Source of the DNA: Rhodobacterales bacterium
Lineage (GTDB): Bacteria > Pseudomonadota > Alphaproteobacteria > Rhodobacterales > Rhodobacteraceae
Assembly: GCA_002747325.1 (NCBI GenBank)
Contig: PDOZ01000029.1
Location: 1 to 64,000, forward strand
DNA length: 64,000 nt
Reading direction: 5' to 3'
Position numbers and translations under genes: made by a program. The notes below the pieces were generated by a model. It ran no database searches, was not told where the DNA came from, and was given only the letters and a program-made list of their open reading frames with translations. Every line of letters starts with the position of its first letter. Within the stretch, counting starts at the first letter, position 1. Positions 1 to 31,800 of this stretch are shown here, one piece after another.

Positions 1-125
1 CCAGATTTTTGCCCTGAGCGTCTTCGCGACCCCTTGAAATAGAACCACTATTCCTGCGGTGCCGCTCATAGTCAGAACAAAAATCTGACAAACCAGTGGC
101 GCAGGGATTATGGGTCTACGCCCTA
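1..125. repeat. Partial copy (right half) of a dispersed MITE-like inverted-repeat element; extends beyond the left window edge
   Basis: Near-identical to 31441..31566 in the same orientation (ccagatttttgccctgagcgtcttcgcgacccc...tcagaacaaaaatctgacaaaccagtgg...attatgggtctac.cccta); ends with the same 33-nt terminal repeat (93..125). Confidence 0.9.
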
Positions 126-31301: not shown

Positions 31302-31566
31302 TAGGGTGTAGACCCATAATCCCTGCGCCACTGGCGCCAAATCCGCGAAAGATCAGCGGTTTGGCGCGCGCAGGACATAGTGGGTCTATTTCCAAGCGCG
31401 TCGAGCCGCTGAGGTGAAGCGGATTTAGCGTCTTCGATTTGCCAGATTTTTGCCCTGAGCGTCTTCGCGACCCCTGGAAATAGCCCCACTATTCCTGCGG
31501 TGCCGCTCATAGTCAGAACAAAAATCTGACAAACCAGTGGTGCAAGGATTATGGGTCTACACCCTA
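31302..31566. mobile_element. MITE-like element with 33-nt terminal inverted repeats and nested internal inverted repeats
   Basis: TIR left 31302..31334 TAGGGTGTAGACCCATAATCCCTGCGCCACTGG vs reverse complement of 31534..31566 (2 mismatches). Internal pairs: caggacatagtgggtctatttcc / ggaaatagccccactattcctg; cagatttttg / caaaaatctg; ggcgccaaatccgc / gcggtttggcgc. Right half repeated at 1..125. Confidence 0.85.
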
Positions 31567-31599
31567 GTCGGGCTTGCCTTCCGCGCGTCATACAGCCAA

Positions 31600-31800
31600 A
31601 ACGGGCCTGCATGGTTTTTCGCCCCAAGGGCGGGATTTGAGGGAAAGCGGATAAGCCGCTGCCGCCCCCGCGACTGTGAATGCCGAGCGCGCGCCAGGGC
31701 CACTGGGAAACCGGGAAGGCGGCGCAAGCTGTGACGCACGAGCCAGGAGACCTGCCATGTGGAAACCAACCCGTCGGGGCTGACGGGCAAAGGAGTATTG
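31600..31800 (+). ncRNA. Cobalamin riboswitch upstream of cobW
   Basis: Conserved core gggaaagcgg...gccgctgccgcccccgcgactgtgaatgccgag...ccagggccactgggaaaccgggaaggcggcgc...gacgcacgagccaggagacctgcc, followed by hairpin cccgtcggggctgacggg just before the SD. Confidence 0.95.

Follow-up and report, generated by a model that had tools for sequence, protein, structure and literature searches.

MITEs are usually regarded as remnants of insertion sequences (ISs) that are defined by their ends. Several described families can be compared with the element reported here, which lies in a stretch of 64,000 nucleotides of a Rhodobacterales genome (referred to below as the window). ERIC (also IRU or RU-1; 127 bp) is likewise non-coding, intergenic and strongly folded, with terminal inverted repeats (TIRs) ending in TA, and it carries anchors resembling those of our hairpin, AAGGCG...AACGC, in the same order; it differs in having another TIR, half the length and an apical hairpin of other sequence. 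NEMIS/Correia elements are also dispersed MITEs near genes that form stable stems in transcripts, for which RNase III cleavage has been reported, but they have another sequence, other hosts and a single TIR family; both ERIC and NEMIS stems can influence mRNA stability (PMC2229807, PMC10969869). RUP of Streptococcus pneumoniae shares with the present element the TIRs of a resident IS (IS630-Spn1) and TA targets, but it involves one IS and one host, and a structured body in common with other families is not known for it; apart from this RUP/IS630 case, TIR-to-IS matches for bacterial MITEs have mostly not been sought or not been found, according to a review (PMC2229807). REPINs are similar in being an inverted pair of strand-polar hairpins, but consist of 20–40 bp REP units tagged GTAG or CGTC without DDE-type TIRs (PMC3733652), whereas our hairpins are ~95 nt long and lie inside DDE-type TIRs, so that the element does not qualify as a REP or REPIN. 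Finally, the palindromic, dispersed YPAL (RU-2) repeat of Yersinia (~168 bp) is similar in size to a one-hairpin form of our element of 162–168 bp (PMC2759123). In the literature searched, no description was found of a MITE body common to more than one IS family, nor any text with the sequences reported here.

Judged by its sequence, the element in the window is a MITE (Table 1). With 265 bp and TAGGGTGTAGACCC, it is not a 127-bp element with TATACCC TIRs as ERIC is, and its boundaries recur in other copies. The first-pass annotation had described 33-nt TIRs with two differences, further inverted pairs nested inside, and the absence of a transposase reading frame. All three points hold: an inverted-repeat search of the window gives a TIR complementarity of 31/33 (94%) at a spacing of 199 nt, the nested pairs comprise pair I2 as well as the stems of two hairpins, A and B, and the element contains only stop-to-stop read-through frames. 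The short peptide AGIVGLFPGVAKTLRAKIWQIEDAKSASPQR, suspected to be spurious, indeed results from reading the minus strand through hairpin B and the centre. The prediction of a highly structured fold was also borne out, with folding energies (MFE) of -148.8/-154.7 kcal/mol against means of -82.7/-85.4 for shuffled sequences (z = -13/-15), and none of 200 shuffles equally stable. The second copy, at the start of the window, is real (95%) and dispersed, but it is not a natural half-element. Base 1 of the window is base 1 of contig C9, and the contig end cuts the copy; contigs C10, C16, C41 and C46 of the same MAG likewise end within copies, indicating that the repeat broke the assembly.

Table 1. 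Positions of the element, its parts and its second copy in the window
Feature	Position	Strand	Length	Basis or remark
Complete element, TA at both ends (TAGGG...CCCTA)	31302-31566		265 bp	TIR pair and same boundaries in other copies (own genome, other genera)
Left TIR	31302-31334	+		Outer ~16-18 bp resemble IS5-family IS of own genome
Right TIR	31534-31566	-		Inverted partner of 31302-31334
Hairpin A, motif strand +	31336-31430	+		Model R1 28.2 bits, E 2.5e-4
Hairpin B, mirror copy, motif strand -	31440-31530	-		Model R1 80.8 bits (own sequence in training set)
Apical part of hairpin A, ATAGTGGGTCTATTTCCA	31377-31394	+		Inverted pair I2
Apical part of hairpin B, mirror of ATAGTGGGTCTATTTCCA	31475-31492	-		Inverted pair I2
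Centre between hairpins A and B	31431-31439	no strand		Site of extra ~45-nt hairpin pair in 310-312 bp copies (L004, L005, L057)
Second copy: hairpin B 1-89, right TIR 93-125	1-125			Cut by start of contig C9

Hairpins A and B are the same motif, since a covariance model (R1) built from 52 B hairpins only also detects hairpin A, both in the window and elsewhere (up to 46.6 bits). The two are mirrored, and the motif strand is therefore the plus strand for A and the minus strand for B. The consensus of this strand reads stem 1, CAAGGCG, stem 2, GCAGGnA, an apical stem with a UGGUU-like loop, UUUCAAG, stem 2', CAACGCAG and stem 1', with conserved letters in the internal loops and at the tip. The stems covary strongly: compensatory changes were found in 26 of 30 pairs, 93.9% of cells are paired, and the covariation score of 0.642 compares with 0.173 in shuffles (0/500 as high). 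Selection preserves the fold rather than the stem sequence; template switching within palindromes is also able to keep arms complementary.

In a structure kept as double-stranded DNA, G.T mismatches should be as well tolerated as A.C mismatches. On the motif strand, however, the G.T:A.C ratio is 134:45 or 78:40 for hairpin A and 162:32 or 129:91 for hairpin B, depending on the strand used for the fold, while the TIR stem shows little asymmetry (62:45). A column sign test gives p 0.0025 for B folded from the motif strand; the other three runs point in the same direction with p 0.05–0.15, the tests for hairpin A being weak (p 0.12–0.15), and related sequences are not independent in these statistics. 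A first count on unaligned sequences, which had given no strand asymmetry in the hairpins, was superseded by the aligned counts, and the A2/A3 mismatch counts were discarded as biased, as the fold or alignment itself favours G-U. This moderate evidence suggests that the G.T excess on the motif strand of both hairpins reflects single-stranded folding, probably of RNA, an inference made without transcript data.

An IS with matching TIRs could be identified in the same genome and in a relative (G003). It belongs to the IS5 family (DUF4096 and DDE domains; PF13340, PF01609) and shares the outermost 16–20 bp of the TIRs, with 16 of the first 20 bases identical at the left end. In the own MAG it is a pseudogene of 952 bp, and in the relative there are four 851-bp copies with two overlapping transposase frames. 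The similarity is restricted to the ends; the interior of the MITE has none to the IS. Nearly all copies of the element have TA at both ends, and the target context Y-TA...TA-R is common to most MITEs and all four IS copies of the relative. For copies other than that of the window, empty orthologous sites were found reciprocally in Sulfitobacter EhC04 and DFL-14, where two copies lie ~70 bp apart in one spacer and each site is empty in the other strain. As the empty alleles have GA and AA where the filled alleles have TA, a 2-bp TA target duplication can only be inferred; it is likely but not proven. On contig C38 of the own MAG (L012:61-600), a gene of the YjbR/MmcQ family is interrupted by a one-hairpin copy of 162 bp; its flanks, once joined, match PF04237. 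Mobility of the element is thus strongly supported by comparison of sequences, in the absence of transposition data, and mobilisation in trans by the transposase of a resident IS is inferred. Strains with empty sites were also sought for copies on Phaeobacter and Pseudosulfitobacter plasmids, and none were found. Copies of genome G201 with ~1 kb between the halves (L102, L103) were considered as autonomous versions but rejected, as they proved to be IS3-type and IS630-type insertions into the element. Near TIR singletons of three genomes (G003, G000, G186) no further IS was found except at one locus (L069).

The first-pass annotation had proposed a dispersed MITE family widespread in Rhodobacterales, which would be refuted by only two copies in the genome and no intergenic copies in relatives. 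The family is indeed dispersed, and mostly intergenic, both in the own MAG and in other genera. The MAG contains 35 sequence matches and at least eight elements bounded by paired TIRs (162, 265, 265, 267, 310, 312, 377 and 381 bp), and the window copy is matched in at least 20 of the 397 Rhodobacteraceae genera sampled, which is a minimum, as scoring was limited to two candidates per genome. When a more central sequence (L037) served as query, 17 of 19 genomes had matches, with up to 25 in one. Among Rhodobacteraceae copies the length remains nearly constant at 264–268 bp while identity drops to ~70%; there are also variants of 310–317 bp (L004, L005, L057, L160, L167, L200), and those aligned carry an extra ~45-nt mini-hairpin pair exactly between A and B. 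Out of 97 elements placed with a simple ORF finder, only two lie within ORFs, and the intergenic setting is convergent for 40, tandem for 40 and divergent for 14, with a median distance of 19.5 bp to the gene 3' ends that face them. In Sulfitobacter (L158, L161, L254) a different short repeat of ~68 bp (GCATCGCAAATGTCC...) occurs beside and within copies. On Phaeobacter gallaeciensis plasmids (L283/L284), an internal deletion within the element accounts for a 68-bp difference between strains in one and the same insertion.

What the earlier reading missed is the interior module, which reaches far beyond Rhodobacterales with different IS ends. A 24-base tip motif was found in at least 114 stretches of genome contigs, the matches listed including Rhodobacteraceae, Novosphingobium and other Sphingomonadales, Microbulbifer and an unclassified gammaproteobacterium. 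Model R1 has matches in 71 of 399 Pseudomonadota genomes, representing 50 of 213 genera; scoring covered just the best matches in each genome, and E-values are rough. The surrounding elements are mostly ~265–270 bp, or ~160–168 bp with one hairpin, and are bounded by many unrelated types of TIR, most starting in or beside TA. Microbulbifer litoralis carries a one-hairpin form of 164 bp, in at least 20 copies, whose ends are those of a resident IS630-family IS (1148 bp, DDE_3 transposase), with 28 of 30 bp identical at one end. This links the hairpin to transposases of at least two families. Sequence comparison thus demonstrates one hairpin module under different TIRs; that the remaining TIR types belong to other ISs is an inference. 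A search with the Novosphingobium TIR type retrieved only ~269-bp elements and no IS pair. Pattern matches in viral contigs were dismissed as chance, having neither a TIR pair nor an extended fold. A degenerate one-hairpin copy was also seen on a plasmid of Shewanella sp. ANA-3 (L280, 2501-2635), where it separates hsdS from hsdR in a type I restriction operon.

Of the kinds described so far, ERIC comes nearest to the element. At four of seven ERIC loci a broadened model (R2) has its best match on the ERIC copy, each time with identical strand and register, albeit weakly (18.0, 14.6, 14.3 and 8.7 bits; E 0.002 to 0.7); at two more loci, matches of lower rank share this register. In addition, other gammaproteobacteria have elements of two hairpins bounded by ERIC-like TIRs, TATACCC...TTCAAG (L238, L330, L356; L302 is similar), and no IS with such TIRs was found around the TIR singletons of G636/G648. 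Given the weak model match, the inferred kinship with ERIC is suggestive only.

We consider it probable that the element represents a pan-proteobacterial structured MITE body that acquires its TIRs from resident ISs and is moved in trans. In the window genome, an IS5-family transposase supplied in trans would recognise the element ends, with insertion at YTAR-like sites. The interior is an inverted pair of one ~95-nt hairpin, and not a deletion remnant of that IS; in each lineage this module would be bounded by the TIRs of a resident IS, as shown for the two cases that could be resolved, IS5 in Rhodobacteraceae and IS630 in Microbulbifer. The hairpins would fold as a single strand, most likely as RNA in transcribed copies, often directly past stop codons, and since they are mirror images, transcription from either side would give one hairpin in the functional sense. 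Based on the effects of ERIC and NEMIS stems on mRNA stability, we propose that the hairpin may be a structure for processing or protection of the transcript, by which insertions can be tolerated and the element can persist, as has been proposed for these two families. This appears to be its most likely role, inferred with moderate confidence and without transcript data. A wider proposal, to which we give an even chance, is that a MITE superfamily spanning the Proteobacteria has as its heritable unit an ancient strand-polar hairpin, usually in mirrored pairs, that repeatedly changes its TIRs (IS5, IS630 and others), with classical ERIC as a shortened branch; this would offer a route to the origin of ERIC, so far unknown. 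Here the ends vary and the folded middle persists, over at least two transposase families and as many proteobacterial classes, by which the question why bacterial MITEs are so structured becomes directly testable. The covariance models could also annotate many spurious ORFs and unexplained intergenic repeats.

It is unlikely that this is an ordinary, internally deleted IS5-derived MITE whose palindrome arose incidentally through inverted duplication and template-switch repair and whose hairpins have no function. The TIRs do match an IS5-family IS, template switching can homogenise palindromes, and the TIR stem shows little strand asymmetry; yet the interior lacks similarity to the IS, the same hairpin, including the conserved letters of its internal loops and tip, is also flanked by TIRs of IS630 and of many other types, and the motif strand of both hairpins has more G.T than A.C mismatches irrespective of the strand from which the fold is derived. 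As far as can be judged from these comparisons, an IS5 origin of the interior is largely refuted. REP hairpins in REPINs are recognised by RAYTs, and a signal at the DNA level, in which the mirrored hairpins fold in single-stranded DNA or a cruciform and are bound by a host or transposase protein, remains possible, though we regard it as doubtful. The geometry is REPIN-like, in that two inverted, strand-polar hairpins read inward from the ends, their conserved internal-loop and tip letters resemble a protein site, and single-stranded DNA would give G.T tolerance too, but the ends belong to DDE transposases, which act on double-stranded DNA.

The position of the window copy might also suggest a cis-regulatory RNA of one of the neighbouring genes, smc (minus strand) and cobW (plus strand), which are divergent and have the element in the spacer between them, a setting that is in the minority among the placements. 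The cobalamin riboswitch (31595-31773) starts only 28 bp past the element end. We nevertheless hold such a role to be highly improbable, as the dispersed copies in many genomes have unrelated neighbours and no curated Rfam family fits the element, only the riboswitch itself being matched; a conserved regulatory RNA fixed at one site in all relatives would be at odds with a dispersed family. No sigma-70-like site was detected between the element and the riboswitch in a simple scan. The room for a cobW promoter in this interval is small, and the element may supply or displace that promoter.
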